DNA of 54,910 nucleotides from Deltaproteobacteria bacterium. Lineage in GTDB: Bacteria; Myxococcota; Myxococcia; Myxococcales; 40CM-4-68-19. The notes beneath the pieces are model-generated. The model saw nothing but the letters and a program-made list of their open reading frames with translations, had not been told where the DNA came from and searched no databases. How positions within the stretch are numbered: position 1 is the first letter of the stretch; the number at the start of each line of letters is the position of its first letter. The translations under genes were made by a program, and so were the position numbers. The stretch lies in assembly GCA_025358085.1 (NCBI GenBank), contig JANYKT010000175.1, positions 1 through 54,910 of the forward strand, in the 5' to 3' direction. This document shows, piece by piece, positions 18,188 through 42,769 of the stretch.

Positions 18188-19762
18188 TCAGCTCCGCCCG
18201 AGCAACTGCGCCAGCGCGTCGACCAGCGCCGCGGGCTCGACGGGCTTCGCGATGTGCTGCTGGAATCCCGCCAGAAGCGCCTGCGCGCGATCCTCGGCGC
18301 GCGCGTTGGCGGTCAGCGCTGCCGCGGGAATGGTGGGCTGGACGTCCCCGCGCCGGACGCGGCGGATGAGCGAATAGCCGTCCTCGCTCGGCATCGAGAC
18401 GTCGCTGAGCAACAGGTCGAACGGCGCCGCGTGGAGCGCTGTCATCGCCTCGGCCGCCGAGCCAGTGGACGTCACGCGGGCGCCGAACTGCTCCAGGAGC
18501 GTGGTGAGCAGGTACTGCGCGTCGAGGTCGTCCTCGACCAGCAGAACTCGTACGCCCTGCAGGTCCTGGTGCCGCGGGCGGTCCTTGGTACGCGAAGGCG
18601 GCGGCACCGACGCGCACGCAGTCCGCGAGCGGAGCGGAAGCGTGACGGTGAAGCGCGCTCCGGTACCTGATCCGTCGCTGTCGGCGGTGACGCTGCCGCC
18701 GTGCAGTTCGACCACGTGCCGCACCAGCGAGAGCCCGAGCCCGAGCCCGCCCTTCTCGCGCGAAAGCTGCCCGTCCTCCTGCCGGAACGCGTCGAACGCA
18801 TGAGGGAGGAAGGCGGGATCGATGCCCCGGCCGGAGTCGCGCACCACCAGCAAGAGCTCGAACTCGGACGGCTGCAGCTGGACCTGCACTGCGCCGCCGC
18901 GGGTGCTGAACTTGATGGCGTTCGCGACCAGGCTATGGACGATCTGGTGCAGGCGGTCGGCGTCGCCGAAGACGCGGTACTCCTCGTCGAGCGGGCGCGA
19001 AACCTGAAGTTGCAATTTCGCCTCGTTCGCCGCGGGCCGCAACGCATGGACCGCCGCCTCCACCAGCGCGCCCATCTCCACTTCGCGGAAGGTGAGGCTC
19101 ATGGTACCGGCGGAAATGCGCTGCGCGTCCAGCAGGTCATCGACCAGCTGCGCTTGCAGCCGCGCATTGCGTTCGATGGCCTCGAGAGGGCGGCCCTGCG
19201 AGTCGGCGTTGGCCTTGCCCAGGCGCAAGAGCCGCACCCAGCCGAGGATCGAGGTGAGCGGCGTCCGCATCTCGTGCGAGAGCGTGGCGAGGAACTGGTC
19301 CTTGAGACGGCCCGCCTCCTCTGCCGCACGCTGCCCGGCCTCGGCCCGGAGCTGCGCCGCTTCGGCGAGCTTCTGCGCGGCCTCGGCGAGTTGCTGCGCA
19401 GCTTCCGCGCGCGCGAGGGCCTGGGCCGAGAGGTGCAGCGTCAGCAGCGCGACCGCCTTCGCACGCAGGAGAGCCGCGTCCAGCGGGGCCGGCAGCGCGT
19501 CCACCGCGCCGTCCGCGAGCAGCCGGAGCAGGTCCGCCGCGGGCGCGTCCACCACCACCACCGGCACGTGCGGCGCCGCCTCGCGCAGGCGCCGCAGCGG
19601 GGCAGGGTGGACCGCGATGATCAGCTCGTGCTGGGACAGCCCGGCGTCGGCCTCGGAGAGCGAAGAGTTGGCCGTCAGCGAGAGCTGCAGCGGTCCCAGC
19701 GCCGCAGCCACCTTTGCCGTGTCCGCGCCGAGGAGCAGCGCCCGTTTGCCGCGCGTCGTCAC
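18188..19762 (-). CDS. Hybrid sensor histidine kinase (pseudo-REC, HisKA, HATPase, REC)
   Basis: This is a 524-residue soluble hybrid kinase. Residues 5-105 look like a receiver fold without a phospho-acceptor Asp (LIIAVHP in place of the usual Asp strand). A five-heptad signalling helix at 119-153 leads into the HisKA domain, with the phospho-accepting His in LSHEMRTPLT (H163). The HATPase domain has the N-box (LVANAIKF), DSGRGID and GLGLGLSL. A C-terminal receiver carries its Asp in LLLSDVSMP and its Lys in HIAKPVEP. No membrane segment or sensor domain is visible, so input probably comes through the pseudo-receiver. It overlaps the preceding kinase gene by 4 bases (ATGA), so the two are co-translated. 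Confidence 0.92.
   Translation of the reverse strand: MTTRGKRALLLGADTAKVAAALGPLQLSLTANSSLSEADAGLSQHELIIAVHPAPLRRLREAAPHVPVVVVDAPAADLLRLLADGAVDALPAPLDAALLRAKAVALLTLHLSAQALARAEAAQQLAEAAQKLAEAAQLRAEAGQRAAEEAGRLKDQFLATLSHEMRTPLTSILGWVRLLRLGKANADSQGRPLEAIERNARLQAQLVDDLLDAQRISAGTMSLTFREVEMGALVEAAVHALRPAANEAKLQLQVSRPLDEEYRVFGDADRLHQIVHSLVANAIKFSTRGGAVQVQLQPSEFELLLVVRDSGRGIDPAFLPHAFDAFRQEDGQLSREKGGLGLGLSLVRHVVELHGGSVTADSDGSGTGARFTVTLPLRSRTACASVPPPSRTKDRPRHQDLQGVRVLLVEDDLDAQYLLTTLLEQFGARVTSTGSAAEAMTALHAAPFDLLLSDVSMPSEDGYSLIRRVRRGDVQPTIPAAALTANARAEDRAQALLAGFQQHIAKPVEPAALVDALAQLLGRS
19304..19408 (-). repeat. Five tandem 21-bp units encoding coiled-coil heptads
   Basis: Within the hybrid kinase gene, five imperfect 21-bp units encode AEAAQQL, AEAAQKL, AEAAQLR, AEAGQRA and AEEAGRL. 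They form a continuous helix directly before the HisKA domain. Gain or loss of a unit would keep both reading frame and heptad register. Confidence 0.75.
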
Positions 19763-21201
19763 CGCTCGGCAACCGCTTTCGGGAGGCGCAACCAGAAGGT
19801 GGTGCCTGAGCCCAGTTCGGAGCGGAGGCCGACCGTGCCTCCGTGGGCCTCGACGATCTCCTTCACGATGACCAGGCCGAGGCCGGTGCCTTCCACCTTG
19901 GCCGCGGCCGAGCCAGTGACCCGCGCGTACTTGGTGAAGAGGCGCTTCTGCGCATCAACCGGGATGCCCCGGCCGGTGTCCTCGACGGCAAGCTCGATGC
20001 CGGCGGGGTCGCGCTGGAGACGCAGCACCACCCGGCCACCGCTGGAAGTAAACTTGAGCGCGTTGGACACCAGGTTACCCACCACCTGCGTCAGACGGCG
20101 CCCGTCGCCCAGCACCGCGGCGGGCTGCCCAACCTCCATCGCGAGCTCCAGACCGCGTGCGGCAGCGAGCGGCAGATATTCGTCGTAGACGCTGGTGCAG
20201 ACGTCCCGCAGGTCCACCTCACCGTGTTCGATCTTGAATTGCGCCGACTCCATCTGCGCGATGTCGAGAAAGTCGCTGACCATGCGAACGAGGTCGTGCA
20301 CGCGCGCCGTCATCTTCTCCAGCTCCTGCTTGACCTCCGTGGTGAGCGGGCCCCGCATGCCCTGCAGCAACATCTGCGTGCGCATCTGCAGCGCGGTCAG
20401 GGGCGAGCGCAGATCGTGCGCCACCATCGAGTAGAAGTCCACTTGCCGCTTCTCGCGCTCTCGCACCTCGGTCACGTCGCGCAGGGTGACGGTCGTATTG
20501 CCGAGATCGTCGCTGGGCGGGATGCTCAGGTGCGGCGAATAGATGCGGCGCCGAATCTCGACGTCGACCGGCTTGCCTCCCTCGCCACCCGCTGCGAGGA
20601 GGTGGCCGGCAGGGCCGGGCGCGAGCTCGGTAATGTCGCAACCGACCATGGAGGCTGCCGTCCGATCGAACACCCGTTCTGTTTCGGAATTGACAAAGAT
20701 GATCCGGCTTTTGCGGTCGAAGGTAATGACCGCGTCGGGCAACTGCGAGAGCACCTGGCTCAATAAAAGCTCGGCGTGCTCGGCGCGCTCACGCAGCTGC
20801 CGGGCGCGGACCAGCGCGTCCACCCGCGCGCGCAGCACCGGTGCCGCGTAGGGCTTGACCAGATAGTCGTCGGCGCCCGCGTCGAGCCCTTCCACCACTT
20901 GATCGGTCTGCTGGTTGATGGTGAGGAGCAACAAACCCAGCGTCGCGGTCGCCGGACGCGATCGGACGAACTGGCAGATGTCGATTCCGGACACGCCGGG
21001 CATTACCCAGTCCACCACCAGCACGTCGGGCAACTTGCCCGTAGCCAGCTGCTCGAGCGCGACAGCACCCTCGGCGAAAAGTTCGACATCATAGGTCCCC
21101 GCCAAAGCGCGGCGCGCGATTTCAGACTCGAGCGGGCTGTCGTCCACAACCCACGCGATTCTGCGGCGCTCGGGCGGAGGCTGGCCTCGGAGACCATTCA
21201 T
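19759..21201 (-). CDS. Sensor histidine kinase with N-terminal receiver and PAS domain
   Basis: This 480-residue soluble protein has an intact receiver at about 14-130, with the acidic pair VVDD, phospho-acceptor D64 in VVDWVMP and Lys in YLVKPY. A PAS domain (about 150-235) begins LSQLPDAVITFDRKSRIIFVN. The HisKA domain carries its His in MVAHDLRSPLT, and the HATPase domain carries NALKFTSSGG, DTGRGIP and GTGLGLVIVK. The order suggests that phosphorylation of the receiver by another kinase controls its activity. It is transcribed divergently from chemosensory operon 1 (about 110 bases between starts) and is co-transcribed with the hybrid kinase that follows, so the three units may signal together. 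Confidence 0.92.
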   Translation of the reverse strand: MNGLRGQPPPERRRIAWVVDDSPLESEIARRALAGTYDVELFAEGAVALEQLATGKLPDVLVVDWVMPGVSGIDICQFVRSRPATATLGLLLLTINQQTDQVVEGLDAGADDYLVKPYAAPVLRARVDALVRARQLRERAEHAELLLSQVLSQLPDAVITFDRKSRIIFVNSETERVFDRTAASMVGCDITELAPGPAGHLLAAGGEGGKPVDVEIRRRIYSPHLSIPPSDDLGNTTVTLRDVTEVREREKRQVDFYSMVAHDLRSPLTALQMRTQMLLQGMRGPLTTEVKQELEKMTARVHDLVRMVSDFLDIAQMESAQFKIEHGEVDLRDVCTSVYDEYLPLAAARGLELAMEVGQPAAVLGDGRRLTQVVGNLVSNALKFTSSGGRVVLRLQRDPAGIELAVEDTGRGIPVDAQKRLFTKYARVTGSAAAKVEGTGLGLVIVKEIVEAHGGTVGLRSELGSGTTFWLRLPKAVAER

Positions 21202-21310
21202 CGTGCGCGTGTAACATGAACGCAGCCGGCGTTGGCATGCTCCCGCGCGTGCCTGTTGAGCACAATACCAGGCGCTCGCCCGTTACTTGACCCATGCCTC
21301 TTTCGCCTTC

Positions 21311-21706
21311 ATGGTCCGCTCGATGCGCGAGATCCTGGTGGTGGACGACAGCAAGGTCATGCGCGACATGATTGTTGCGTGCCTGCGATCCGACGCGAGC
21401 CTGCGGTTCTCGCACGCTGCCAGCGGGCTCGAAGCCATCGAGCAGCTTTCGCTTCGCCCCTTTGATTTAGTCGTTCTCGATCTCAACATGCCGGACATCG
21501 GCGGCATCGAAGTGGTGGAGTTCATTCGTGGCCAGGATCGCTTGCGCCATCTCCCGATCATCATCGTCACCACGCGCGGGGACGAGGCCTCGCGAGCCAG
21601 CTCGCTGGAGGCGGGCGCCTCGCGCTTCCTGTCCAAGCCATTCGAGCCTGAGGTCATCCTAAGCGAAGTACAGGGTTTGCTGCAGCAGAGCGCGGCGCGT
21701 CCTTGA
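21311..21706 (+). CDS. cheY: CheY-type single-domain response regulator (Che operon 1)
   Basis: This receiver of about 131 residues has all catalytic residues: VVDD at strand 1, phospho-acceptor D57 in VVLDLNMP, Thr in IIVTT and Lys in FLSKPFEP. It is probably the output protein of the CheA encoded next. The start could be ATG 21311, ATG 21323 or TTG 21287. None has a strong ribosome binding site, and the fold begins at REILVVDD. Its TGA overlaps the TTG start of cheA (21703). Confidence 0.9.
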   Translation: MVRSMREILVVDDSKVMRDMIVACLRSDASLRFSHAASGLEAIEQLSLRPFDLVVLDLNMPDIGGIEVVEFIRGQDRLRHLPIIIVTTRGDEASRASSLEAGASRFLSKPFEPEVILSEVQGLLQQSAARP

Positions 21707-23745
21707 GCACCAAGGTGGATCTCAGCGAATTCGTCGCCGGCTTCCTGGCCGAGGCGGATGATTTGCTGGCGCTGGCGAATAGCAGCCTGCTTCTGGCAGA
21801 GACGGCGTCAAAGGACGTCAAACAGAATCCGCGCGCGGTGCGCGAGGCGTTCCGGGCACTGCACACCATCAAGGGGCTGTCGGCGATGGTCGGCGTCGAG
21901 CCGGTGGTAGCGCTCGCGCACCGGATGGAAGCGGTGCTGCGGCTCGCCGATCAAGGGGTGATGCGGCTGACGCCCGAGTCGGTCGATCTCCTGCTGCAAG
22001 GAGTGCGCGCCATCGAGCAGAGGGTGCAGGCGCTGCGCGAGGGCAAGACCGTGGCGGAGGCTCCGGTTGCGCTGCTCGGCCAGCTCAAAGCGATCGAGGC
22101 GGGGCTACTCGCGCCGCGTGCAACAGCGCCGGCGCAGCTCGACCTTTCGCCTTTGTTGCTCGCGAGGTTGCTGCCGATGGACCGCGAGCAGCTCCTGCAA
22201 GGCATCGCCGCGGGCAGGAACGCGCTGCGCGCCGACTTCACGCCTTCACCCGAGAAGGCGGCAGCGGGCATCACCATCACCTCCGTCCGCGAGCAGCTGA
22301 AGGCGCACGCCGAGATCGTCAAAGTCCTCCCGCTGTCGGTCGCAGACACCGCCGAGGCGCCGGGTGGCCTGTCGTTCGTTCTCTTCCTGCTGACTGACGG
22401 AACGCCCGCGACGCTTTCGACGCTGATGATCGCGAGCGGGCTCACCCTCACGCCCCTCGCAGCTGCGCCCTTGCCGCCGGCCCGGCCAGATGAATTGGCG
22501 GGTGAAGCGCGGGCCCGGCTTTCGGCCCAGCAGGTCGAACTGGCGGAGCTGGAAGAGGAGAGCGCGGGGACGCGGCCCGGCCTGGTGCGAGTGGAGGTAG
22601 CGCGGCTCGACGACACCATGGAAAAGCTGTCCGCGTTCATCGTCACTCGCTATCGACTCATGCGCGCGGTGACCGATCTGGCCGCGACTGGCGTCGACGT
22701 GCGCACGCTGAAACAGATCATGGCCGAAAATGCGAAACAGCTTCGCGACCTGCGCGCGGCCGTGCTCCACGTCCGGATGGTGCGGATGGGCGAAGTGCTG
22801 GAGCGGGTGCCCCTGTTGGTGCGCGGCCTGCGCCGCAACACCGGGAAGCAGGTCCGGCTGGTGCTCGATGTCGGCAACGCAGAAGTGGACAAAGCGGTTG
22901 CGGACCGGATCTTCCCGGCCATCGTGCACCTGGTCCGCAACGCGGTTGATCACGCCATCGAGAGCCCGCAGGAGCGCCGCGCACTGGGCAAGCCGGAAGA
23001 GGGCGAGCTGCGCATCGTCTGCCGGCAGCGCGGCGGCAACCAGCTGGAGCTGTGCATCACTGATGACGGCCGTGGCGTGGACCGGGAACTGGTGGCGAGG
23101 CGCGCGGGCCGCGAGGTGCCCGAGAGCGATGCGGCGCTGCTCGACCTGCTTTGCCTTCCTGGCCTCTCGACGCGCGACCAGGCGACCACCACCAGCGGGC
23201 GCGGCATGGGCATGGACATCGTCCGCCGCGTCGCCGCGGACGAGCTGGGCGGGGAACTTTTGCTGCAGACGAAGCTGGGCGCGGGTACCACCTTCACGCT
23301 GCGGGTTCCGCTGACCATCACCATCATCGACGCCTTCTCCTTCGAGTGCGGGGACCAGCGCTACGTGGTGCCTGTCTCGATGGTGGAAGAGATTGTTGAA
23401 CTCGATCCCGCGCGGCTCGCACACACGCCCGGCGCGCGATTCGGCGCATCGCTGGTGGAGCGGAGCGGCGAAGCGATACCGGTGTTGCAGCTTGCACAGA
23501 TCTTCGGGCTTTCAGAGAAGACGCCCGCCACCCGCGCGATGGTGATTCGACGCGGCGGCGAGGCGACTGGCATCGCCGTGCACCGCATGTTGGGGCAGCA
23601 GGAGGTGGTGGTGCGGCCGATGCAAGATGCGCTGGTCCGCGTGGTTGGAGTTACGGGTGCGACCGACCTGGGCGACGGCCGGCCCACGCTGGTGCTCGAT
23701 CTGGCCGCGCTCGCTGGCGCTGCGCTCGCAAAGGAAGCCGCATGA
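21703..23745 (+). CDS. cheA: CheA chemotaxis kinase (Che operon 1)
   Basis: This 680-residue CheA has an N-terminal Hpt domain with the phosphorylated His in ALHTIKG (H54). A weak P2-like region lies around 180-215. The dimerisation helices run from about 295 to 365, and the HATPase domain has the N-box [14 protein letters not shown] (409-422), DDGRGVD and SGRGMGMD (498-505). A C-terminal CheW-like domain begins near 535. It should phosphorylate the CheY and CheB of this operon in response to the soluble MCP. Translation starts at TTG 21703, inside the cheY stop (TTGA overlap). The next gene overlaps by ATGA. Confidence 0.94.
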   Translation: MSTKVDLSEFVAGFLAEADDLLALANSSLLLAETASKDVKQNPRAVREAFRALHTIKGLSAMVGVEPVVALAHRMEAVLRLADQGVMRLTPESVDLLLQGVRAIEQRVQALREGKTVAEAPVALLGQLKAIEAGLLAPRATAPAQLDLSPLLLARLLPMDREQLLQGIAAGRNALRADFTPSPEKAAAGITITSVREQLKAHAEIVKVLPLSVADTAEAPGGLSFVLFLLTDGTPATLSTLMIASGLTLTPLAAAPLPPARPDELAGEARARLSAQQVELAELEEESAGTRPGLVRVEVARLDDTMEKLSAFIVTRYRLMRAVTDLAATGVDVRTLKQIMAENAKQLRDLRAAVLHVRMVRMGEVLERVPLLVRGLRRNTGKQVRLVLDVGNAEVDKAVADRIFPAIVHLVRNAVDHAIESPQERRALGKPEEGELRIVCRQRGGNQLELCITDDGRGVDRELVARRAGREVPESDAALLDLLCLPGLSTRDQATTTSGRGMGMDIVRRVAADELGGELLLQTKLGAGTTFTLRVPLTITIIDAFSFECGDQRYVVPVSMVEEIVELDPARLAHTPGARFGASLVERSGEAIPVLQLAQIFGLSEKTPATRAMVIRRGGEATGIAVHRMLGQQEVVVRPMQDALVRVVGVTGATDLGDGRPTLVLDLAALAGAALAKEAA

Positions 23746-24167
23746 CAGGCACGCTTCACGTCGTCTTCAAGGTGGGCGGGAGCGAGTACGCGCTGCCCGC
23801 CGCCGATGTTTTGCAGATGGAGTCGTTCACCTCCGCGACGCCGGTTCCGGGGTCGCGGCCTTGGGTCGCGGGAGTGATGCAGGTGCGTGGGCGCATCGTG
23901 CCGGTGGTGGACGCGCGCGTGCGTTTCGGCCTGCCCCCTCTGGAACGGACCCTGGACAGCCGCGTGGTGGTCGCGATGCACGCCGAGCGCGCGGTGGCGC
24001 TGCTGGTCGATGCGGCGCGCGAGGTGCTCAAGCTCGACCCCTCGCAGATCAAGCCTCCGCCGGAGATCGTCGCGCGCGAAGCAATGGGCCTGGTCAAAGG
24101 CGTGGCGCAGGTCGGCCCGCGGATCGTGATGCTGCTCGATTTCGCAAAAGTGATTGGCGAGGAATGA
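23742..24167 (+). CDS. cheW: CheW coupling protein (Che operon 1)
   Basis: This 141-residue single CheW domain opens with VVFKVGGSEYALPAADVLQM and carries the conserved core VAGVMQVRGRIVPVVDARVRFGL at about 43-65. It links CheA to the chemoreceptor. Start and stop both lie in 4-base ATGA overlaps, with cheA upstream and the MCP gene downstream, giving one tightly coupled unit. Confidence 0.94.
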   Translation: MTGTLHVVFKVGGSEYALPAADVLQMESFTSATPVPGSRPWVAGVMQVRGRIVPVVDARVRFGLPPLERTLDSRVVVAMHAERAVALLVDAAREVLKLDPSQIKPPPEIVAREAMGLVKGVAQVGPRIVMLLDFAKVIGEE

Positions 24168-26728
24168 CGACCATGAATGTTGCAACGACGACGACACCGA
24201 CGGCTGACCAGCCGAACAGCTCCGAGCGAGCCCACACGCGGGCGGAAGAGACGGCGCGCTCCCTGCGCGATACGGCGGCGCAGGCGCAAGCCATCGAGGA
24301 GGCGGCGCGGCGGCTGGCCGAGACCGGCACCGGGCAGGCTTCGGCGACCGAGGAGATCCGCGCCAGCATCGAGTCGATCGCCGCCGGCGTAGAGGAGACC
24401 GGCCAGTCGATTCACCATCTGGGCCGCTCGCAGCGTGAGGTCGCCGAGACCGCCAAGGCACTGCAGGAGAGCGCCGAGACCAACGCCGCCGCGCTGCAGG
24501 CGGTGAGCAAATCGGTGGCCTCGGTGCGCCGCGACTCCGAAGCGCTGGCGAACTCGGTCGAAAGCACGACCCAGACCGTCGAGGAGATGGCCCGCTCGGT
24601 GAAGGGCGTGGCCACCAACGCCGAGGACGCGGCGTCCTCGAGCGAGCAATTGCTGGCGGCGGCGACCGAGAACGCGGCCACCATCGGCGAGCTGGTCAGG
24701 GCCGGCGAGGCTTCGGCCGCCAACACCGAGGAGGTCGCGGCCACCATCGAAGAGATGGCGAAAGGGCTCTCGCGACTTGCTGCCGATGCGCAGGGCGCGG
24801 CGGCTCGCGCCGAGAGCACGGCCACGGCGGTGACGTCGGTGGGCAAGGCGCTCGGCGAGGTGGCGCGCGGGGCCGGCGACATGGCCGCGTCGGTCGAGGA
24901 GACTTCTGCTTCCACCGAGGAGCTGGCGCGCACCATCCGCGCCGTCGCCGATCACGCCAAGGCAGTGGAGGCCGCGGCCCAGGGCAACGCCGCCGCCACC
25001 ACGCAGATTGCCGCCTCCGTCGAGCAGGTCTCGGCGACCGCGGAGAAGAACGCAGCCACCGTCGAGCAGAACGTCGCCACCATTGAACAGCTGGCCCGCA
25101 GCGCGCAGGGCACGGCCCAGGCGGCGGAGCGCATCGTCGTCCTGGCGGCGTCCAGCGCGACCGGCGCGCAGGAGCTTGACGCCACCTCGCAGCGCATCGC
25201 GCAGATGGGCGAGGGCGCCCGGCTTACCGCCGACAAGGTCACTGCGGTCGCGCGCGAGGGCGGCGCCAACGTGACCAAGTCCATCGCGGGCCTGGGCCGC
25301 ATCCGGCAGTCAATGGTTGAGTCGGCGACGGTGATGAAGGAGATGGGCAAGCGGGCCGAGGAGATCGGCGACTTTGTCCAGACCATCAATATGATCGCCG
25401 ACCGCACGAACTTGTTGTCGCTCAACGCCAGCATCGAAGCGGCGCGCGCGGGCGAGCATGGGCGCGGCTTCGCGGTGGTGGCCGAGGAGATCCGCGCGCT
25501 CGCCGATCGGGCGGCGGTCGCCAGCATGGACATCGCCAAGGTGATCCGCGGACTGCAGTCGACCACCCGCGACGCCATCACCGCATCGACGGAAGGACTC
25601 AAAGTCGCCGAGGAGGGAAATCTGCTGGCGGGCGAGGCGGACAAGGCGATCGGCTCCATCCTCTCGGGCGTCGAGCAGCTCGGGCTCTCGGTCAAGGAAG
25701 TCTCCCGCGCCAATGGTGAACAGCTGCAGGCGGTGCGAACCCTTTCGCTGGGAACGGCGCAGGTCAACGAGCAGGCGCGCGGCATCGCGGTGGCCGCGAA
25801 CGAGCAGGCGCAGTCGGCCCACGCACTCGCGCGCTCGGGCGGCGAGATGCGCAAGATGGCCAAGCAGACCAGCCAGTCCACCGCCGAGCAGGCGCTGGCG
25901 CTGCGCGATTTGCTTCGCAACAACGCGCAGCTGACCTCCAGCGCCGAGCAGGTTTCGCGGGCCACGCAAGAGCAGGCGAACGCGGCCGCCGAGTTGGCCA
26001 AGGGCGCGGCGCAAATGCGCTCCATCACCCAGCAGACCGCAGCCGCGATGGCGGAGCAGGGGCGCGCTGCCTCGCAGGTGATCGTCGTCGCCGGCGAGAG
26101 CGCGACCTCGGCGCAGCGCATGCTGGTGGGGCTGACCGAGCAGTCGAAGGGTGCAGCCGAAGTGGCGCGGGCGATGGAGGACTCGCGCAAGCAGGCGGTG
26201 CAGACGGCGCGCGCGGTGAATGAACAGGCGCGCGCGGCGCAGCAGACCGAAGCGGCGGCGCGGCAGGTGGCGCAACTCGCGGCCCAGGTGACCAAGGCGA
26301 CCTCGGAGCAGACCAAGGCGGCGGTGTCGCTCGCCAAAGCGTCGGAGGAAGTGCGGCGGGTGGCACGGCAGACAGCGCGCGCATCGGCCGAGCAAGACGC
26401 GGCTCTCGGCGGTATTGCCGCAGCGGCGGCGAAGCAGGCGGCTGGCGTAGCGGCCATCGCGCGCGCCACCGATGAGCAGGCGGCGGCAAGCGAGGAACTC
26501 GGGCGCGCCACAGTGGTCATGCGCACGCGAGCCAAGGAGATCACGACGACCGTGGCCCAGGCGGCCAAGACGGCTGCGGGCGTCGCAACCGAGGTGGCGG
26601 GCATCGCCGCGGACGTCGGTCGCATCCGCGAGGCGAACCTTGCCAACGCCGACGCGCTGGCGAGCATCACCGCTGCCCTCGCTGAAGGCCGTTCCAATGG
26701 GGCCGCCCCGCGGGTGGAGAAGGCGTGA
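24164..26728 (+). CDS. Very long cytoplasmic methyl-accepting protein (Che operon 1)
   Basis: This 854-residue protein has no membrane segment and no separate sensor domain, and nearly all of it is predicted helical coiled coil. The MCP hairpin tip is unmistakable: NMIADRTNLLSLNASIEAAR at 409-428, then AGEHGRGFAVVAEEIR. The tip falls almost exactly at the centre (about residue 425), giving two arms of about 420 residues. The C-terminal arm contains related blocks near 545, 602, 714 and 770 (pattern EQxxAAxxLAxxxxxMRxxxxQT). Transmembrane MCPs have cytoplasmic hairpins of about 250-310 residues in total, so this one is unusually long. It must sense a cytoplasmic cue or partner. The HEAT-repeat protein encoded next is a candidate. 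Confidence 0.9.
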   Translation: MTTMNVATTTTPTADQPNSSERAHTRAEETARSLRDTAAQAQAIEEAARRLAETGTGQASATEEIRASIESIAAGVEETGQSIHHLGRSQREVAETAKALQESAETNAAALQAVSKSVASVRRDSEALANSVESTTQTVEEMARSVKGVATNAEDAASSSEQLLAAATENAATIGELVRAGEASAANTEEVAATIEEMAKGLSRLAADAQGAAARAESTATAVTSVGKALGEVARGAGDMAASVEETSASTEELARTIRAVADHAKAVEAAAQGNAAATTQIAASVEQVSATAEKNAATVEQNVATIEQLARSAQGTAQAAERIVVLAASSATGAQELDATSQRIAQMGEGARLTADKVTAVAREGGANVTKSIAGLGRIRQSMVESATVMKEMGKRAEEIGDFVQTINMIADRTNLLSLNASIEAARAGEHGRGFAVVAEEIRALADRAAVASMDIAKVIRGLQSTTRDAITASTEGLKVAEEGNLLAGEADKAIGSILSGVEQLGLSVKEVSRANGEQLQAVRTLSLGTAQVNEQARGIAVAANEQAQSAHALARSGGEMRKMAKQTSQSTAEQALALRDLLRNNAQLTSSAEQVSRATQEQANAAAELAKGAAQMRSITQQTAAAMAEQGRAASQVIVVAGESATSAQRMLVGLTEQSKGAAEVARAMEDSRKQAVQTARAVNEQARAAQQTEAAARQVAQLAAQVTKATSEQTKAAVSLAKASEEVRRVARQTARASAEQDAALGGIAAAAAKQAAGVAAIARATDEQAAASEELGRATVVMRTRAKEITTTVAQAAKTAAGVATEVAGIAADVGRIREANLANADALASITAALAEGRSNGAAPRVEKA

Positions 26729-29079
26729 CCCAGCCGTCTTCCCCGCTGGTGCTGTCGTCGGCCGATCGCGAGAGAATTTCCGAGGTCGATCGGCTCGCGG
26801 CACAGGGCTCGGAGAGAGTCCCTGAGCTCGTGGTCCTGATCGCCAGCCGCGGCTGGGCGGTTCGGCGGGCGGTGGTCGCGGCGCTGGCGCGCATCGGTGA
26901 CCCGGCCATCGCCGCCATCGTGCAGAGCTTGATCTCGCAGCGCGACGACGAGGGGCGCCTGGCAGCGATGGTGGACGCGCTCTCCGCCTCGCGCGGCGAC
27001 GCGGCGACACCGATGCTGCGGCTGCTCGACGAGCCGTGGAGCCCGCCAGCGCTGATCTGCGACGCCGTCCAGGTTCTCGGTCGCCGCAAGGTGACCGCCG
27101 CAGTTCCGGCGCTCGAGCGGCTCACCGCGCACCAGGACGACAACGTCGCGGTGGCGGCCATAGAAGCGCTCGGGCGCATCGGCGGTGGCGCTGGGCTCGA
27201 GGCGATGATCGCCATTCTCTCGGGCGACAATTTCTTCCGCAGCTTCCCCGCCATCGACGTGCTGGGCCGCAGCGGCGACTCGCGCGTGCTGGTGCCCTTG
27301 TTGGCGCTGTTGGATGACCCGCGCCACGCGCTCGAGGCCGCGCGCGCGCTGGGCCGCGTGGGGGATCCGGCTGCCGCGGTCGCATTGTCCGAGTTGTTGC
27401 GGCACGCGGGAGACGCTCTGGCGCGGGTGATTGCCGTATCGCTCGGCTCCATTCACGGGCAGGCGCTGGATCGCTACGGAACCGCCGAGCCGGTCGAGGC
27501 CGCGCTGCGCACCGGCCCCGCCGATCCTCTGCCAATCGTGCAGCGTCTCGCGCAGGCCGTAGCAGGCGCCGCGGACGAGGAGCAGGCTGCCCTCTGCGCG
27601 GTGCTCTCGTGGATCCCCGACCCGGCTGCCGCGAACACGCTGATCGGTCTGCTCGACATCATTCCCGCGCGCGCGGCCCTGGCCCTGCGCGCGCTCGGAC
27701 ACGAGAGCGACCAACAGGTTTTGCTCGCGCTGCGCGAGGGCAGCAGCGCTCGGCGGGCGCTGCTATTGCCGCTCATCAGCGGCCGCACGCGCTCGGCGAA
27801 CGATGTCCTCGACTGCCTGGCCGACCCTGATGCATCGGTTCGCGTGCTCGCCTGCAACGCGCTCGCGCGCATCGGCGACGTGCGCGCGGTCCCCAGTCTC
27901 TTCGAGCTGCTGCGCGATCCTGACCCGATGCTGGTGCAGGCGGCGGTCGCTGCCATCCAGTCGCTGGGTAGCCCCAAGGCCGAAACCCTCGCGCTGCAGG
28001 CGGCGCTCTCCCCGGCGACTCAGGTGCGCCGCGCTGCGCTGCGCATCGTCGCCTATTTCGGCTACCCGGCCGGACTTGATCTCTTGATCGACGCCGCGAA
28101 GGGCGGGGACGAAAAGCTGCGCGACGCCGCCATCCACGGGCTCGCGCTCCTGGAAGAGCCGCGCGCCCTGCAAGCTTTGCTCGGCATGGCGGCGCACAAG
28201 AATCCGCGGGCCCGCGGCGCGGCGGCACGTGCGCTGGGGCAGGCCAGCAGCAGTCCGGAGGTGCTCGCCGCGCTGCGCCAGGGCCTCGCAGACGGGGATG
28301 CCTGGGTCCGCTATTACGCCTGCCAGTCTCTCGGCAAGGTGCGGGACGACGGCGCGGTGAATGAAATCTTGCGGCTGGTCCGCGACCCGGCCGGACAGGT
28401 GCGGGTCGCCGCCATCGAGGCGCTCGCGCGGCTGGAGACGAAGGAGGCGCTGGAAGCGCTGCAGACCGCTGCTGGCGCGGACGATCCCGACGTGCGGCGC
28501 GCGGCGCTGCTGGGGCTCGGCGCGCGCAAGGTCCCCGAGGCGCTGCCGGTCCTGGTGCAGGCAGCGCGCAGCGCCGACGCCGCTACCCGCTTGATCGCCG
28601 TCTCCGCGGTGGCCGCGTACGACGGTCCGGAAGCGGTGGCCGCACTGGCGAATGCAGCTGGAGATCCCGACGCCGCGGTCTGCGGCGCTGCCATCGGCCT
28701 GCTCGCCGCGCGCGCGGATCCCGCGGCCACTCCCGCGTTGATCGCGCTCCTGGCAAATCCCTTCACCCGCGACCGTGCGGTGGACGCGCTGGCTGCGGGC
28801 GCGCCCGGACGGATGGCGGGCATCTCCGCCGCGCTCGAGGGTGCCGGGGCTAGCCTCGCCACTTCGCTGGTCGCGGTGCTGGCGCGCATGCGGCGCAAAG
28901 ACACCTTCGCCGCCATCATCGATGCGCTCTCGCTCCCCAACGTCTTCGCCCGCCGTGCGGCCGCATCCGCGCTCGGGGTACTGAGGCTTCCGGAAGCGCG
29001 CGCAGCACTCGAACGCGCCATTGGCGCCGACCCGGATCCCGAAGTGCGCCGCGCTGCGCTGGCGGCCTCCGGTCCCTGA
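26725..29079 (+). CDS. HEAT-repeat protein in Che operon 1
   Basis: This 784-residue protein is built from about two dozen repeats of roughly 31 residues. The recurring pattern is V(R/A)(R/A)AA(I/L)xALGxI/LGDPxAxxxL, for example VAVAAIEALGRIGG, VRVLACNALARIGDVRAVP and VRRAALLGLGARK. These are HEAT or PBS-lyase-type repeats forming an alpha-solenoid for protein binding. There is no signal peptide or membrane segment. It sits between the soluble receptor and CheR with overlaps on both sides (GTGA at 26725, TGATG at 29077), so it should be made in step with them. A scaffold or input role for the soluble MCP is plausible. No catalytic domain is visible. Confidence 0.9.
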   Translation: MTQPSSPLVLSSADRERISEVDRLAAQGSERVPELVVLIASRGWAVRRAVVAALARIGDPAIAAIVQSLISQRDDEGRLAAMVDALSASRGDAATPMLRLLDEPWSPPALICDAVQVLGRRKVTAAVPALERLTAHQDDNVAVAAIEALGRIGGGAGLEAMIAILSGDNFFRSFPAIDVLGRSGDSRVLVPLLALLDDPRHALEAARALGRVGDPAAAVALSELLRHAGDALARVIAVSLGSIHGQALDRYGTAEPVEAALRTGPADPLPIVQRLAQAVAGAADEEQAALCAVLSWIPDPAAANTLIGLLDIIPARAALALRALGHESDQQVLLALREGSSARRALLLPLISGRTRSANDVLDCLADPDASVRVLACNALARIGDVRAVPSLFELLRDPDPMLVQAAVAAIQSLGSPKAETLALQAALSPATQVRRAALRIVAYFGYPAGLDLLIDAAKGGDEKLRDAAIHGLALLEEPRALQALLGMAAHKNPRARGAAARALGQASSSPEVLAALRQGLADGDAWVRYYACQSLGKVRDDGAVNEILRLVRDPAGQVRVAAIEALARLETKEALEALQTAAGADDPDVRRAALLGLGARKVPEALPVLVQAARSADAATRLIAVSAVAAYDGPEAVAALANAAGDPDAAVCGAAIGLLAARADPAATPALIALLANPFTRDRAVDALAAGAPGRMAGISAALEGAGASLATSLVAVLARMRRKDTFAAIIDALSLPNVFARRAAASALGVLRLPEARAALERAIGADPDPEVRRAALAASGP

Positions 29080-29894
29080 TGTCGCTGCCCCTCTCCCCGC
29101 AGGTCTTCGCCATCCTGAACGGGCTGATCGAAGATCGCGCCGGCCTGCACTACGGCCCCAACGATGTCGAGATCGGCCGCGACAAGATCTCCGACCGTGC
29201 CGAGGCGGCCGGGTTCGACTCGCTGCTCGATTACTATTACTTCCTCCGCTATGACCCGGGCGGCAGCGCGGAACTGGATTTGCTGGTGGACGGGCTGGTC
29301 GTCCACGAGACCTACTTCTTCCGCGAACCTGATCAGCTTGAAGTGCTGGTGCGCCGGCTGCTCGCGCGCAGGCTCTCGGACGACGCGACCGTGCGCATCT
29401 GGTGCGCGGCCTGCGCGACCGGCGAGGAGCCATTGACGCTGGCGATGATGCTTGCCGACCTGGGCCTGCTGCGGCGCGTGCGCATCGTGGCGAGCGACAT
29501 CAGCGAGCGCGCGCTGGTCCGGGCGCGCAGCGGAGAATTCACCCCGCGCGCCGTCCGGTCACTGCCGGCGGGAATTGAGGGACGGTGGATCCTGCGCGAG
29601 GGAAATCGCGTCCGCGTCGAGGCTTCGCTCGCCTCCGCGATTGAGTGGCGCCGCATGAACCTGCTCGACGGTGCGGCGATTGCGCAGCTGGGCCGCTTCG
29701 ACGTGGTGCTGGCGCGGAACGTGCTCATCTACTTCGGTGACGACACCGTGCGGCGGGTCGTGAAGAGTCTCTCCGACGCGCTTTTGCCTGCCGGGCTCCT
29801 GCTGGTAGGGGCTTCCGAGTCGCTGCTGCGCTACGGCACCTCGCTTTCGTGCGAAGAGCACGGAGGCGCATTTTTCTACCGGAAGGTTGCATGA
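29079..29894 (+). CDS. cheR: CheR receptor methyltransferase (Che operon 1)
   Basis: This 271-residue protein has the CheR N-terminal helical domain, then VHETYFFREP and the SAM-binding motif WCAACATGEEPLTLA at about 108-122, followed by VLARNVLIYF. It should methylate Glu residues of the operon's MCP using S-adenosylmethionine. It lacks the C-terminal pentapeptide-binding insert or TPR extension of some relatives. The ATG overlaps the HEAT gene stop by one base (TGATG). Confidence 0.94.
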   Translation: MSLPLSPQVFAILNGLIEDRAGLHYGPNDVEIGRDKISDRAEAAGFDSLLDYYYFLRYDPGGSAELDLLVDGLVVHETYFFREPDQLEVLVRRLLARRLSDDATVRIWCAACATGEEPLTLAMMLADLGLLRRVRIVASDISERALVRARSGEFTPRAVRSLPAGIEGRWILREGNRVRVEASLASAIEWRRMNLLDGAAIAQLGRFDVVLARNVLIYFGDDTVRRVVKSLSDALLPAGLLLVGASESLLRYGTSLSCEEHGGAFFYRKVA

Positions 29895-30925
29895 CGACGC
29901 GCGTTCTGGTGGTGGACGACTCGGCGTTCGCGCGCAAGGTGGTGCGCGAGGTGCTCACGCGTGCCGGCTTCGAGGTCGTGGGCATTGCCCGCGACGGGCT
30001 CGAAGCGCTGGAGAAGATCGGCGAGTTCAAGCCCGACGTCATCACGCTGGATCTGGTGATGCCCAACCTCGACGGGTTGGGAGTGTTGGCCGCGCTTTCG
30101 GCGGTGAATCCCCCGCGCGTGGTGGTGGTGAGCATGGCGGGCGAGGACAGCGCGCTCGGCATCGCGGCGCTGCACGCGGGCGCCATGGTGGTGGTGCGGA
30201 AGCCGACCGCGCTGGCGTTGGACCGGCTCTACGAATTGGCCGGCGAGCTGACCGCGGCCGTTACCGCCGCGGCCATCGCACGGACGCCGCGCTTGCTCGA
30301 GTCGGGGGCGGCGGGTGCGCTGACGACCGTGGGCGCGACCGCTCTCGGGCGAGCGGCGAAGCACGAGGTGCTGGTGCTGGGCGCGTCCACCGGCGGCCCG
30401 CAGGCGCTCACGCGGATCATCAGGGCGCTGCCCGGACATTTCCCGCTGCCGGTGGCGCTGGTGCTGCACCTGCCGGTCGGCTACACGCAGCCTTTCGCCG
30501 AACGGCTCGACCGCGAATCGGACGTCGAGGTGCTCGAAGCGGCCGATGGACTCGAGATGGAGCCCGGCCGCGTGCTGGTGGCCCGCGCCGGAGAGCACCT
30601 GCGGCTGCAGCGCTTCGGCGACAAGGTCCGCGCCGTGCTCGATCCGAATCCTGCGGACACGCCGCACCGGCCCGCGGTGGACGTGCTCTTCGAGAGCGCG
30701 GCCGAGGTTTACGGCGCGCGCGTTCTAGCCGCGGTGCTGACCGGAATGGGCAACGACGGCACCCGCGGGGCGTGCGCGATTCACGCCGCCGGCGGGACGG
30801 TGCTGACCGAGGCGGAGCACTCTTGCGTGGTGTACGGCATGCCCCGTTGCGTGGAAGAGGCCGGCGTCTCGGCGGGCAGCTTCGGCATCGAAGCGCTGGC
30901 AGGCGAGTTTTTCCGCCGGCTGTAG
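29891..30925 (+). CDS. cheB: CheB receptor methylesterase (Che operon 1)
   Basis: This 344-residue protein has an N-terminal receiver with phospho-acceptor D54 (ITLDLVMP) and Lys in VRKPT. The C-terminal methylesterase domain has its catalytic triad: S166 in LGASTGGPQ, H193 in LHLPVGY and Asp in GMGNDGTRG. It removes methyl groups from the MCP when phosphorylated by CheA. The start lies in an ATGA overlap with cheR. It is the last gene of the operon. The neighbouring RAYT pseudogene ends only 15 bases beyond it on the other strand. Confidence 0.94.
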   Translation: MTTRVLVVDDSAFARKVVREVLTRAGFEVVGIARDGLEALEKIGEFKPDVITLDLVMPNLDGLGVLAALSAVNPPRVVVVSMAGEDSALGIAALHAGAMVVVRKPTALALDRLYELAGELTAAVTAAAIARTPRLLESGAAGALTTVGATALGRAAKHEVLVLGASTGGPQALTRIIRALPGHFPLPVALVLHLPVGYTQPFAERLDRESDVEVLEAADGLEMEPGRVLVARAGEHLRLQRFGDKVRAVLDPNPADTPHRPAVDVLFESAAEVYGARVLAAVLTGMGNDGTRGACAIHAAGGTVLTEAEHSCVVYGMPRCVEEAGVSAGSFGIEALAGEFFRRL

Positions 30926-37950: not shown

Positions 37951-39489
37951 TCAGACGCGGAAGCGGCGGACGACGTCGGACACTCGCTGTGACAAGTCCT
38001 TCAGCACCGACGCGGCCTGCGTGGTGGTCTCCAGCCGCTTCATCGTCTCATCCATCATGCGAGTCTGGTCCGTCACCGCGCTGAAGATCTGCGTGATGCC
38101 CGCATTCTGCTGCGAGACCGCGGCCGCGATCTGCCGCACCGCCGACGAGTTGTCCTTCACGATGGTCGACAGCTCGCGCAGGTTCTCGCCCGACGCCTTG
38201 ACCTGCGCGAGCCCGCCCTCGATCTTTTGCGAACCGCGCTCGGTGATGCTGACCGTCGCGCGAATAGCCCCGCCGATGTCCTCGAGGATCTCCCGCACTC
38301 GATTGGTCGCCTGGATCGATTGATCAGCCAGCGAACGGATCTCCCGCGCGACCACGGCGAAGCCCTTGCCGTGCTCGCCCGAGCGCACCGCTTCAATTGC
38401 CGCATTCAATGCCAGCATATTTGATTGGTCGGCCAGATCCTTCACTGTCTGGGTAATGCCGCCAATCTGCTGCGTCCGCTCCGCCAGCTGCGCGATGCGC
38501 TGCGCGATCTCGTCCACCTGCGCGCGGATATCGGTCAGTCCACCCAGGCTGCGTTCGATGGCCGCCTCGCCTTGCGTCGACACCGCGTCCGCCTTCTCGG
38601 TGAGCTTCAACACCATCTCGGCCTTCTGCGCGGCCAGGAGGGAAGTCTGCTTGATCTCCTGCGCCGTCACCTGCGTCTCCTGCAACGCGGTCGCCTGCCG
38701 GGTGATGGTCTGGGACTGCTCGGCTGTCGAGGTGCCCAACTCGCTCCCGGCGTTCGCCAGCAGCCGCACCGATTCCTGCAGCGCGCTCAAGACCTCCTTG
38801 AACTTCTCCACCATTTGCGCGAAGGCGCGCGCCAGCTCGCCGACCTCGTCATTCGTGGTCACCTCAACTTTCGCGGTCAGGTCGCCTTCGACAATCAGCG
38901 AGGCGACGTGCGTGAGCCGCAGCAACGGCGCGACGAAGCTGCGCACCACCAGCACCGCGATGCCGAGTGCCACCAGAAGCGCGAGCAGCGTGATGGCGAG
39001 CAGCAGCTTCTGCGCCTCCATCACGCGATTGTTGCCTTCGGCCGGGTCGAGCCCGACATGCACGATGGTTCCGGTGATCACCGCCGCCGGCACGTCGATA
39101 TAGGTAACGCCTTCGATGACGTTGTCTGCGACTTTGCTGGTCTGCTTGAGGATCGCCGCATCCTGCGCCGGCGCGCGGCCCTCGAAGGTGTGCGCGATAA
39201 TAGCGCCATTCGGGCCGACCACCTCGACATAAGCGAGGTTCGCCTCCTTCTTGACCGAGGCAATGGTCGAGGCCACCGCCGAGTCGGGCATCTCCACCAG
39301 CGCCGACGCGAGCGTGGCGGAGATGGCCTTGCCGCGATCGCGCGCCTCTTTGCGCAGCACGTTCCGGAAGTAGACGATGTTGGAGACACTGGTCGCGATG
39401 GCGAGAAGCGCAAGCATGCCGCCGACCAGCAATGACACCTTCCACTGCAAGGGAAAACTTCCGCGCGATTTTCGTTGCACAATTTCCAT
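37951..39489 (-). CDS. Transmembrane methyl-accepting chemoreceptor (Che operon 2)
   Basis: This is a 512-residue MCP of classic layout. A membrane helix at about 17-40 ([18 protein letters not shown]) is followed by a periplasmic domain of about 115 residues, a second helix near 155-182, a HAMP domain (about 183-235) and the signalling hairpin. The tip reads [27 protein letters not shown], with the unusual EAVRSG in place of the common EAARAG. The sensed ligand is unknown. The ATG lies 2 bases after the cheB stop, so it is the last gene of the operon. Its stop directly abuts the decayed island. Confidence 0.93.
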
Positions 39490-39491
39490 AT

Positions 39492-40505
39492 TCACGCTTT
39501 CCGGTTGCGGCACAGTTGCCGCAGGACTTCGGGCACGCTCTCGAGGGCGAGTTGCTGCCGCACTGCTCCGCAGGCAAAAGCGGCCTGGGGCATTCCATAG
39601 ACGATTGAGCTCGCTTCGTCCTGCGCAAAAGTCTGACCGCCGGTCTGCCGCAGCACCAGCAAGCCCTGCGCGCCGTCGTCGCCCATGCCGGTGAGGACCA
39701 GGCCGGCCGCGCGAGACCCATAGTGCTTGGCCAACGAGAGCAGCAGCCGATTGCCCGACGGGCAATGCAACGCCGTACCCCGTGGCGTCCGCAAAAGACC
39801 GCCCGCGTCCACGGTCAGATCGCAGCCGTCGGGCGCCAGGTAGACGTAGCCGGGTTGCAACAGCTCGCCGTCGTGAGCGATCGAGACACTGAGTTGAGTC
39901 ACGCCGGCCAGCCAGCGTGAGAGACCCGCGGTGAAGCCGGAGGCGATGTGCTGCGCGATGAGCAGGGGCGCGCCCAGCTGGCTCACCTTGGCGAGGACCT
40001 GCGCCAGCGCCGGCGGCCCGCCGGTCGACGCGACGATGCCCACCACCTCGACCGCGCCCAGATGCATTTGCGTAGACGGCGCGCCCGCTCGGTACCGGCG
40101 GACCACCGGCACCTCGGCCATCAGCCGGACCGATTCGGCCACCCGCCGGCCCCACTTGCGCAGCTCTTCCGGGCCGGCAGCGGGCTTGGCGATGAGCTCC
40201 AGCGCACCGGCGGCCATGGCCCGGAACGAGAGATCGAGCTGCCGATCCTCCGAGATGGAGCAGATCACCAGCACCCGCGCGGGCGCATCGCGCATGATGG
40301 CGGCGATAGCGCTCAAGCCGTCCAGCCGCGGCATGTTCACGTCCATGGTGATCACGTCGGGCCGCAGCGCGCGCGCCTTCTCGACTGCTTCGACGCCGTC
40401 CATCGCGAGGCCGACGATGGCGAGGTCCGGCTCGGCAGAGAGGAGCTGCACCAGCGCGTTGCGCATGGTTGCCGAGTCGTCGACGACGAGCACGCGGATG
40501 GTCAC
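39492..40505 (-). CDS. cheB: CheB receptor methylesterase (Che operon 2)
   Basis: This 337-residue protein has a receiver domain with phospho-acceptor D55 ([13 protein letters not shown]) and Lys in IAKPAAG. A linker leads to the methylesterase domain with Ser in VASTGGPP, His in AQHIASGF and Asp in GMGDDGAQG. It should demethylate the MCP encoded next. It overlaps the CheA gene by 4 bases (ATGA at 40502-40505). Confidence 0.94.
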
Positions 40506-42769
40506 GCCGCAGATCCCTTCCGCCGCGTGATCACGCTAGCGACCTCGGCCAGCAGCCGGCCCGCCACGCAATCCTTCTTGGAGAGGAACCCGTCGGCGCC
40601 GACCTCGGTGCCATGCTGCCGGTCTGCGGCCGAGTCGCGCGCGGAGACGAGAATGACCGGCATGGAGTCGGTCTCGGAGCGCTGCCGCACGGCTGAGGTC
40701 AGCTGGAAACCGTCCATCTCCTCCATGCCGATGTCGCAGACCAGCACGTCGTAAGCCGCATGCCGCAGCTGCTCCAGCGCCTGCCGCCCGTTCGAGGCGG
40801 TGTGCACCTGGTACCCGCCCGCCTCGAGCGCGGTGCGGTGCAGCGCGCGCGCGGTCAGCGAGTCGTCCACCACCAGCGCGCGCCGGGTCGCGGTCACGCT
40901 CTCGCCCGAGCGGTCCTGATTCACCACCCAGTCGGCCCGCACGATCAGCACCAGCTCGCCGCGCGCCAGCGTGGCCGCGCCCTGGTAGGCGGGCATGTCA
41001 CGCACCTCGGCGGGCAGCGGGCGGATCACCAGCTCTTTGTCGCCCATCACCTCGTCCACGCTGAGCGCCAGCCGCTTGCCCTGCGAGTGGAGGATGAGGA
41101 TGGGCTGCCCTTCGAACGGCACCTCGGGCTGGCGCAGGCCCATCAGCGCGCCGAAGTCCTGCAGCGGCAACAGCTCCTCGCGGTGCCGCAGCTGCAGGCG
41201 CGACCGGCCCACGCGCACGTCGACCGTCGTCGTGCGGCGCGAGGACTCGACCGCGGCCATGGGGATGCCCAGCTGGTGCTCGCCGCAGCGCACGACCAGC
41301 ACTGGCGAGCTGCCCAGCTCGGCGGGCAGGGTGAGGATGAAGCGCGTCCCCTGGCCCGGAGTGCTCTGCACTTCGACCTGTCCGTTCAGCCCCTGGATCT
41401 CATTGCGGACCACGTCGAGTCCGACGCCGCGCCCCGAGATGTCGGTCACCTCGGTCCGCGTGGAGAAGCCGGGCCGGAAGATGATCTGGTGGATCTGCGA
41501 GATGCTCATGGCGGTGAACTCGGCTTCGCTGGCGAGCCCGCGGCGCATCGCGGCTTCCTTGATGCGCTGGACGTCGAGGCCGTTGCCGTCGTCGCCCACT
41601 TCGATGAACAGCATGTTGCCCTGCTGCTCGACGCGGATGGTGAGCGCGCCTTCGCGGTGCTTGCCGCGGCCCTCGCGGACCTCCGGCGTCTCGAGCCCGT
41701 GATCCACCGCGTTGCGCACCAGGTGCACGAGCGGCGCGCGCAGGGCCTCGAGCACGCGGCGGTCGAGCGACACCTCCGCGCCCACCACCGACAGCTTGAC
41801 CAGCTTGCCCTGTTTCTGCGTCAGGTCGCGGACCGCGCGACGCAGCGGCTCGAGCACGGTGCGCACGGGCATGGTGGAGATGGCCTTGAGGCCGTCCTCC
41901 ATGGAGGCGACGATGTCGGCTGCCTCCTCGCCATCGGCGGTGAGCGAGCGGCGCGTGGAGAACAGCACCGCGCGGGCCTCCGCGTTGTCGGCCTTGAGGC
42001 CCAGCCGATCGAGCTGCTGCAGCGCGCGCTCGATTTCGCGGCGCCGCTCCTCGAGGTGCAGCCGCACTTCGCGGAGGCGCTCCACCTCGTGCAGCAGGCT
42101 GACCACCTGCCGCGTGGTGACCCGCCAGGCTTGCTCTTCGCCCGCGGGCAAAGACTGCGGGGACTCTTCCGGCCCGCGATCCTCGAGGCGGCGGCGGCGA
42201 TTCGGGGCGTCGGGAGCAAGGACGGCAGAGGGCGACGTCACGAGTTCGCCAACGAGCAGTCGCGCTCCGTCACCAGCAAGCGCGCCCCGCGGTGACGGCG
42301 GGCTTTGAGCCGGCGACGGGTCTTGCTGACCCGGCGCGTTCTGCGGGGCCGCCGGATTCTGCGGAGCCGGCGAGCTGTGCGGCGCGGATTTCGCTCTCGC
42401 GAGCAGCTCGTGCGACGCCTCCAGCGCGGGGGGGTCGAGCTTCGCATTGACGGCGCGCAGGTGCGCCATCCAGACGTCGAGCGTGCGCAAAAGAGCGTCC
42501 GCCACCTGCGGCGGCAGCGGCGCCTGTGAGTCTCGCAGCGGCAGCGCCACGTCCTCCATGCGGTGCGCGAAATCCGCCAGTGCGTCGAGGCCCAGCGTAG
42601 CGGCGCTGCCTTTGAGCGTATGCAAGCCACGGGCGAGACCGTCGAAGACCTGCGCGCGCCGGTCGGACCCTTTTTCCAGCTCGATGAGCTGGTCCGTCAG
42701 GCGTCCCGCGATCTCCTGCGCCTCGTCAACGAAGCCCGCCAGCAACTGCTCCATCAGCGGATCAAGCAT
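40502..42769 (-). CDS. cheA: CheA-receiver hybrid kinase (FrzE-like layout, Che operon 2)
   Basis: This 755-residue protein has an N-terminal Hpt domain with the phospho-His in GLHTLKGSA (H50). A Pro/Ala-rich linker (about 128-175) contains repeated PQNPAAPQN-like segments, and long dimerisation helices follow. The HATPase domain carries [21 protein letters not shown] and [12 protein letters not shown] CheW-like domain and a C-terminal receiver complete it, with Asp in [13 protein letters not shown] and Lys in FLSKKD. The attached receiver can act as a phosphate sink or as the output, as in FrzE of myxobacteria. The start is fixed by an 8-base overlap with the cheW gene. Confidence 0.94.

Follow-up and report, generated by a model that had tools for sequence, protein, structure and literature searches.

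A soluble Mcp7-type chemoreceptor with mirror-symmetric arms and a predicted length beyond the catalogued heptad classes

The length classes of chemoreceptors (MCPs) rest on paired-heptad insertion. The catalogued classes range from 24H to 64H (MiST3; PMC6943060), and a few rare receptors surpass 32 paired heptads (PMC6628036). In this work, we analyzed a 54,910-nucleotide stretch of myxobacterial DNA (contig JANYKT010000175.1; hereafter the window), in which a Che operon encodes a soluble receptor that shares the paired-heptad hairpin and conserved tip of these classes but has a predicted length of ~114-117H. Such a receptor prompts two questions: how a signal passes through so long a rod, and what provides the input to a chain that has no sensor domain.

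Receptor gene, operon, and identity

The reading frame that encodes the receptor is a genuine gene. It runs for 854 codons from an ATG at 24164 to a stop codon ending at 26728, and both ends overlap the neighboring genes: the ATG shares the sequence ATGA with the stop codon of cheW (23742-24167), and the next gene starts at 26725. These overlaps point to a tightly packed operon (Table 1). A larger frame from 23627 (1033 aa) was dropped as the receptor start because it would overlap cheW. The sole Pfam domain in the product is PF00015 MCPsignal (E = 3e-39, residues 361-536), and this domain, a near-invariant kinase-control hairpin tip, and a match to PDB 2CH7 place the protein among the MCPs. 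Across all 854 residues, 25% of which are alanine, Pfam found no HAMP or sensor domain. A hydrophobic segment of transmembrane strength was also not found in the receptor (maximum KD19 1.39), and the initial annotation was thus right to call this protein soluble.

Table 1. Features of the Che operon and of the receptor gene, with positions in the window.
Feature	Position (nt)	Strand	Basis
CheY-like response regulator (start uncertain, ~21335)	21287..21706	+	Receiver motif in + frame
CheA histidine kinase, 680 aa	21703..23745	+	Hpt, HATPase_c, and CheW domains
CheW coupling protein, 141 aa	23742..24167	+	PF01584, E = 2.7e-32
Soluble chemoreceptor, Mcp7-type MCP, 854 aa	24164..26728	+	ORF and Pfam MCPsignal, E = 3e-39
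N-terminal helical arm (predicted), residues 19-428, E-rich 28/56-residue repeats	24218..25447	+	AF2 helix; constant heptad phase; periods 56/112/168/28
44H-like core, residues ~314-555, collinear with the Thermotoga maritima TM1143 cytoplasmic domain	25103..25828	+	hmmsearch with 2ch7_A
Kinase-control tip, residues 405-450, apex G430/E431	25376..25513	+	Near-invariant in alignment; gap-free against TM1143, PDB 2CH7
C-terminal helical arm (predicted), residues 430-841	25451..26686	+	AF2 helices 430-632 and 635-841
Head-to-tail series of twelve 28-residue units, residues 515-850, two outermost degenerate	25706..26713	+	Consensus rows; EQ phase count
HEAT-repeat solenoid protein, 784 aa, overlaps receptor stop	26725..29079	+	HEAT_2, E = 8e-82
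CheR methyltransferase, 271 aa	29079..29894	+	PF01739, E = 1.5e-42
CheB methylesterase with receiver domain	29849..30925	+	PF01339, E = 4.7e-56; PF00072, E = 3.9e-21

The gene order of this operon, CheY-CheA-CheW-MCP-HEAT-CheR-CheB, is the reverse of the locus-tag order of che7 in Myxococcus xanthus (MXAN_6959-6965), namely CheB7 (6959), CheR7 (6960), 6961, Mcp7 (6962), CheW7 (6963), CheA7 (6964), and CheY7 (6965), as given in PMC3945109. In that source, Mcp7 is listed as a cytoplasmic protein of 821 aa that has neither HAMP nor transmembrane segments, and these features and the size class of ~820-850 aa fit the receptor described here. Receptors from other Myxococcus species (L006-L008) have 852 aa, are 52-54% identical to it, and lie in the same operon. 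Based on gene order, architecture, and this level of identity, the receptor is very probably the ortholog of M. xanthus Mcp7, with MXAN_6962 itself known to us by its annotation, which lists 821 aa and not ~850. The receptor therefore belongs to a described type, which the initial annotation had not named as Mcp7/Che7. What appears to be new is how long the receptor really is, its module of 28 residues, the mirror symmetry of the arms, and the association with a HEAT-repeat protein across phyla, none of which is reported in the open literature that we searched. The accessible portion of PMC3945109 gives Mcp7 as 40H and does not describe its length, symmetry, or 28-residue repeats.

In M. xanthus, Mcp7-GFP is seen as one or two subpolar clusters of high mobility, and two-hybrid assays show that Mcp7 interacts with CheW7 (PMC3945109). 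A cheW7 mutation brings back exopolysaccharide in a difA mutant (PMC4319316). FrzCD of M. xanthus is likewise a soluble receptor and serves a Che system that is not flagellar, but it has 417 aa, is asymmetric, and carries a positively charged, DNA-binding N-terminal tail. In the receptor described here, the corresponding tail has a net charge of -1 (neutral to slightly acidic), which ruled out a DNA-binding tail of the FrzCD type. Divergent from the Che operon, two hybrid two-component proteins (HisKA-HATPase-receiver and receiver-PAS-HisKA-HATPase) are encoded on the minus strand at 18188-21201.

Relatives and distribution

With the CheR of the operon as bait (threshold E <= 1e-60), we found the protein in 50 of 156 Myxococcota genomes, representing 9 of 75 genera. 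The order CheA-CheW-MCP-HEAT-CheR-CheB was observed in all 40 loci examined; CheY lies just upstream of CheA wherever inspected, and this position is kept in L005, L066, L008, L051, and L010. The system occurs in only 2 of 12 genomes of the window's own family, such that its distribution there is patchy. Full-length myxobacterial homologs are 45-75% identical to the receptor, and the receptors in the aligned myxobacterial loci have 835-876 aa. At L061 (5698-8325, minus strand), the C-terminal tail is extended by a short GAAAQ-type repeat that lies outside the coiled coil.

The same gene order was also found in two MAGs labeled Dictyoglomaceae and Cyanobacteria, in which the receptors have 619 aa (tip at 300) and 711 aa (tip at 360), respectively, and both are soluble and symmetric. 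In a Nitrospirae MAG, genes for an MCP (apparently a membrane protein), CheW, HEAT, CheR, and CheB are clustered. All three names are MAG labels and may be wrong. The receptors of L011 and L012 were set aside as candidates for symmetric relatives, as both are asymmetric and membrane-protein-like. By eye, the C terminus of the Nitrospirae receptor (L012, 4417-7272) resembles a solute-binding domain past the signaling hairpin; a solute-binding domain is also listed for McpK of M. xanthus (PMC3945109).

Arms, register, and repeats

The tip motif EAARAGE occupies residues 425-431 (E425-E431), and the midpoint of the chain is at 427.5, so the tip is central as had been claimed. Its near-invariance extends to the two MAGs labeled Dictyoglomaceae and Cyanobacteria. 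The tip sits within an ordinary 44H-like core, which matches the TM1143 domain over 242 columns with zero gaps (hmmsearch with 2ch7_A, E = 4e-47) and the ends of which are approximate, given that the profile numbering runs up to ~10 residues below the protein numbering. The fold match of the receptor to 2CH7 has a TM-score of 0.80 by target. TM1143 belongs to class 44H, with a rod of ~26 nm (PMC2577667); it has the same tip and the same gap-free central region but lacks the ~36 additional paired heptads found beyond the core here.

Hydrophobicity has its best period at exactly 3.500 residues in each arm (power 44 and 29; shuffles reach at most ~10). In the family alignment, the heptad phase outside the tip is constant to within about half a residue between positions 44 and 814, and neither arm shows a stutter or skip over this range. 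AlphaFold2 (run as a monomer with 41 sequences in the alignment) predicted helices at 19-222, 230-233, and 237-428, followed by 430-632 and 635-841, with a single turn at 429 and moderate confidence (mean pLDDT 74, pTM 0.28). No globular domain was predicted in the arms. The initial annotation had proposed a protein that is nearly all coiled coil, with arms of ~420 residues and ~120 heptads if fully helical; the predicted helices of 410 and 412 residues give ~117 heptads, or ~58 per arm, in good agreement. Its claim of exceptional length also stands, but the usual range of 36-44 that it quoted is too narrow, as known classes reach 64H, i.e., thirty-two paired heptads against the ~58 per arm found here. 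At the published rise of 10.5 A per paired heptad (PMC6628036), ~58 paired heptads would make a rod ~61 nm long, apparently about twice the length of the longest catalogued class.

Two tests that are independent of the structure model address the pairing of the arms. Conservation along the N-terminal arm correlates with that along the reversed C-terminal arm (r = 0.68 outside the tip zone), with the best value at zero shift and a fall to 0.1-0.26 at shifts of plus or minus 28. The similarity among 28-mers is likewise mirrored between the arms (Mantel r = 0.77 raw and 0.54 centered, p ~2e-4 each, and r = 0.60 with p = 6e-4 for the receptor of the window alone), although the centered version has a broad peak, and the register is better defined by the conservation test. 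Together with the constant heptad phase, these patterns are as expected for helices that pair in register, and in-register pairing is thus supported at the level of sequence.

Both arms contain internal repeats, as had been noted, with a unit that we correct to 28 aa and a stronger super-period of 56 aa. Against shuffles that preserve the composition at each heptad position, self-similarity peaks at 56, 112, and 168 in the N-terminal arm (z up to 6.0) and at 56, 28, and 112 in the C-terminal arm (z up to 5.5); the family profile gives periods of 56, 112, 168, and 28 in the former and 56, 28, 112, and 168 in the latter. When the C-terminal arm is set in rows of 28, the dipeptide EQ stays in one column, with ten in succession at 519, 547, 575, 603, 631, 659, 687, 715, 743, and 771. 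This amounts to 10 of 12 in one phase (519+28k), compared with at most 6 in 5000 shuffles. The related blocks reported earlier near 545, 602, 714, and 770 correspond to the EQ at 547, 603, 715, and 771 and are thus real, but they represent only part of the series.

The origin of this series may be traced to an ordinary receptor. Its first EQ (519) aligns with the EEQ of TM1143 within the gap-free 242-residue alignment, and a 474-aa ordinary receptor from the same genome has an EQ at the same position (+94) but does not continue the series. In the 619-residue relative from the MAG labeled Dictyoglomaceae, all seven EQ of the C-terminal arm lie at 94+28k from the tip glutamate. Most simply, this would mean that a stretch of 28 residues in the C-terminal helix of a normal receptor was copied repeatedly while the N-terminal helix lengthened along with it. 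Growth by matched duplications in both arms, as suggested in the initial annotation, is accordingly supported by the mirrored 28-mer similarity but not proven: all 38 myxobacterial homologs have the same length, without internal indels over residues 40-800, and most of the difference in the two distant relatives is at the open end, so no duplication event was caught in the act. Individual duplicated blocks (e.g., at offset 168) were rejected as single events, as the best blocks (77/245 in the N-terminal arm and 541/709 in the C-terminal arm) are 35 residues off the exact mirror.

Convergence provides a different account of the 28/56-residue repeats, in which strong constraint on a four-helix bundle that is long and rich in alanine would produce them without any duplication. 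The single length of the myxobacterial homologs is in its favor, as is the small set of residue types on which such a bundle draws. However, the similarity exceeds that of shuffles in which the heptad phase is preserved, EQ holds an exact 28-residue phase across ten units, the pattern is common to mirrored segments of both arms, and the relatives come in three symmetric lengths (619, 711, and ~850 aa). We regard convergence as somewhat unlikely.

Two other readings concern the length itself. In PMC3945109, all M. xanthus MCPs except DifA and McpK, and hence Mcp7, are assigned to 40H, which may suggest a plain receptor of that class with unrelated coiled-coil tails. Class 40H has twenty paired heptads, two fewer per arm than 44H, whereas the alignment with the 44H receptor TM1143 shows no gap and the heptads reach both ends, unbroken and mirror-conserved down both arms. 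These observations argue against the published class for Mcp7 and make a 40H receptor with tails highly improbable. The hairpin may also fold back at a mid-arm elbow (~226 and 636), which would give a thicker rod of ~30 nm like the elbowed coiled coils of SMC-type proteins. The only internal breaks in AlphaFold2 confidence (216-237 and 620-644) occupy mirror positions, with a sum of ~862 that equals twice the apex; conservation drops at both of them, one per arm, and the elbows of MukB and SMC are among the weak Foldseek matches. Yet the breaks also sit at the exact arm midpoints (223.5 and 635.5), as a fold-back artifact of monomer prediction would, and the heptad pattern continues through them, with a high power of 13 at 226. 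An elbow is, in our judgment, improbable, and a straight in-register hairpin is the reading adopted below.

Putative mechanism, partners, and arrays

Taken as a whole, we consider it probable that the receptor is an Mcp7 ortholog that works as a long four-helix rod with in-register 28-residue extensions, receives input from the HEAT-repeat protein and from CheR/CheB, and signals through CheA to CheY. Each chain would fold as one antiparallel helical hairpin, and two chains would form a four-helix rod of ~58 paired heptads, one end of which is the tip that binds CheA/CheW, by analogy with the MCP family. Both arms would have been lengthened in register by modules of four heptads (28 residues), in which E/Q pairs resemble receptor methylation sites. 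Because the receptor chain has no sensor domain, its input would come from the HEAT-repeat partner, as suggested by genomic context, with modification of the rod by CheR/CheB as a further input expected from the MCP family. Phosphorylation of CheY by CheA would then lead to a non-flagellar output; FliG was not found in the window's genome, which is 98% complete.

For the proposed modification, the strict methylation consensus has eight matches in the receptor, compared with 2.4 expected. Seven of these are in the N-terminal arm and one is in the C-terminal arm, which makes a methylation ladder plausible mainly in the former. We infer methylation at the repeats by CheR/CheB; the EQ of the C-terminal arm differ in spacing from the consensus, and modification there is a guess.

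The HEAT-repeat protein may be the missing sensor of this sensor-less receptor. Its gene directly follows the receptor gene in L009, L010, and every Myxococcota locus, and the HEAT-repeat proteins of the two distant relatives, from the MAGs labeled Dictyoglomaceae and Cyanobacteria (L009, 2739-5450; L010, 8027-10462), have a weak but identically placed N-terminal PAS match (residues ~8-120). No Pfam match to PAS was found in the HEAT-repeat protein of the window. An output or scaffold role should also be considered, with the receptor sensing through its distal tails or through clustering alone. HEAT_PBS OE2401F of Halobacterium is a HEAT-repeat protein also encoded with che genes; its partners include CheD and a CheF-type protein, switching requires it, and its proposed site of action lies between CheY and the motor, on the output side and not at a receptor (PMC2666748). 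The PAS domains, which are typical of input, and the overlap of the HEAT gene with the stop codon of the receptor that it adjoins across these loci speak against such a role, which we hold to be a tangible but lesser possibility. Input through the HEAT-repeat protein remains the preferred reading.

The initial annotation further suggested a large cytoplasmic signaling array. Arrays of this kind consist of a hexagonal lattice between two CheA/CheW baseplates; in Rhodobacter sphaeroides and Vibrio cholerae, they are built from membrane-free receptors, and the baseplates are only ~27-35 nm apart (PMC3964821). If the receptor described here forms such sandwich arrays, its CheA baseplates would be separated by 60 nm with interleaved rods and by 120 nm with rods placed end to end, and the predicted signature in tomograms of myxobacteria, in which Mcp7 clusters are known, is a baseplate spacing of at least 60 nm. 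A more far-reaching joint reading includes sensor-less receptors far beyond 64H with paired four-heptad modules in both arms, a ~60 nm cytoplasmic rod array with a methylation ladder on its sides, a far end read by a HEAT/PAS solenoid as a separate sensor, and rod length as a tunable adaptation device; this combination is rather doubtful.

The catalogue of length classes ends at 64H, and it would be extended by a conserved family of ~114-117H with relatives of ~94H and ~85H. These receptors would provide a natural length series for testing how signals travel along four-helix rods, and the series also bears on tip-distant methylation and on the growth of arms by paired duplication.

Elsewhere in the window, a second chemosensory set was identified on the minus strand (37951-43862). 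It includes a HAMP-containing MCP (ORF of 734 aa, with a true start that is probably further in), a CheA fused to a receiver (755 aa), and a CheW-domain protein (366 aa). Also on the minus strand, a 1292-aa ORF (49291-53169) weakly matches Stig1, a family of plant proteins.
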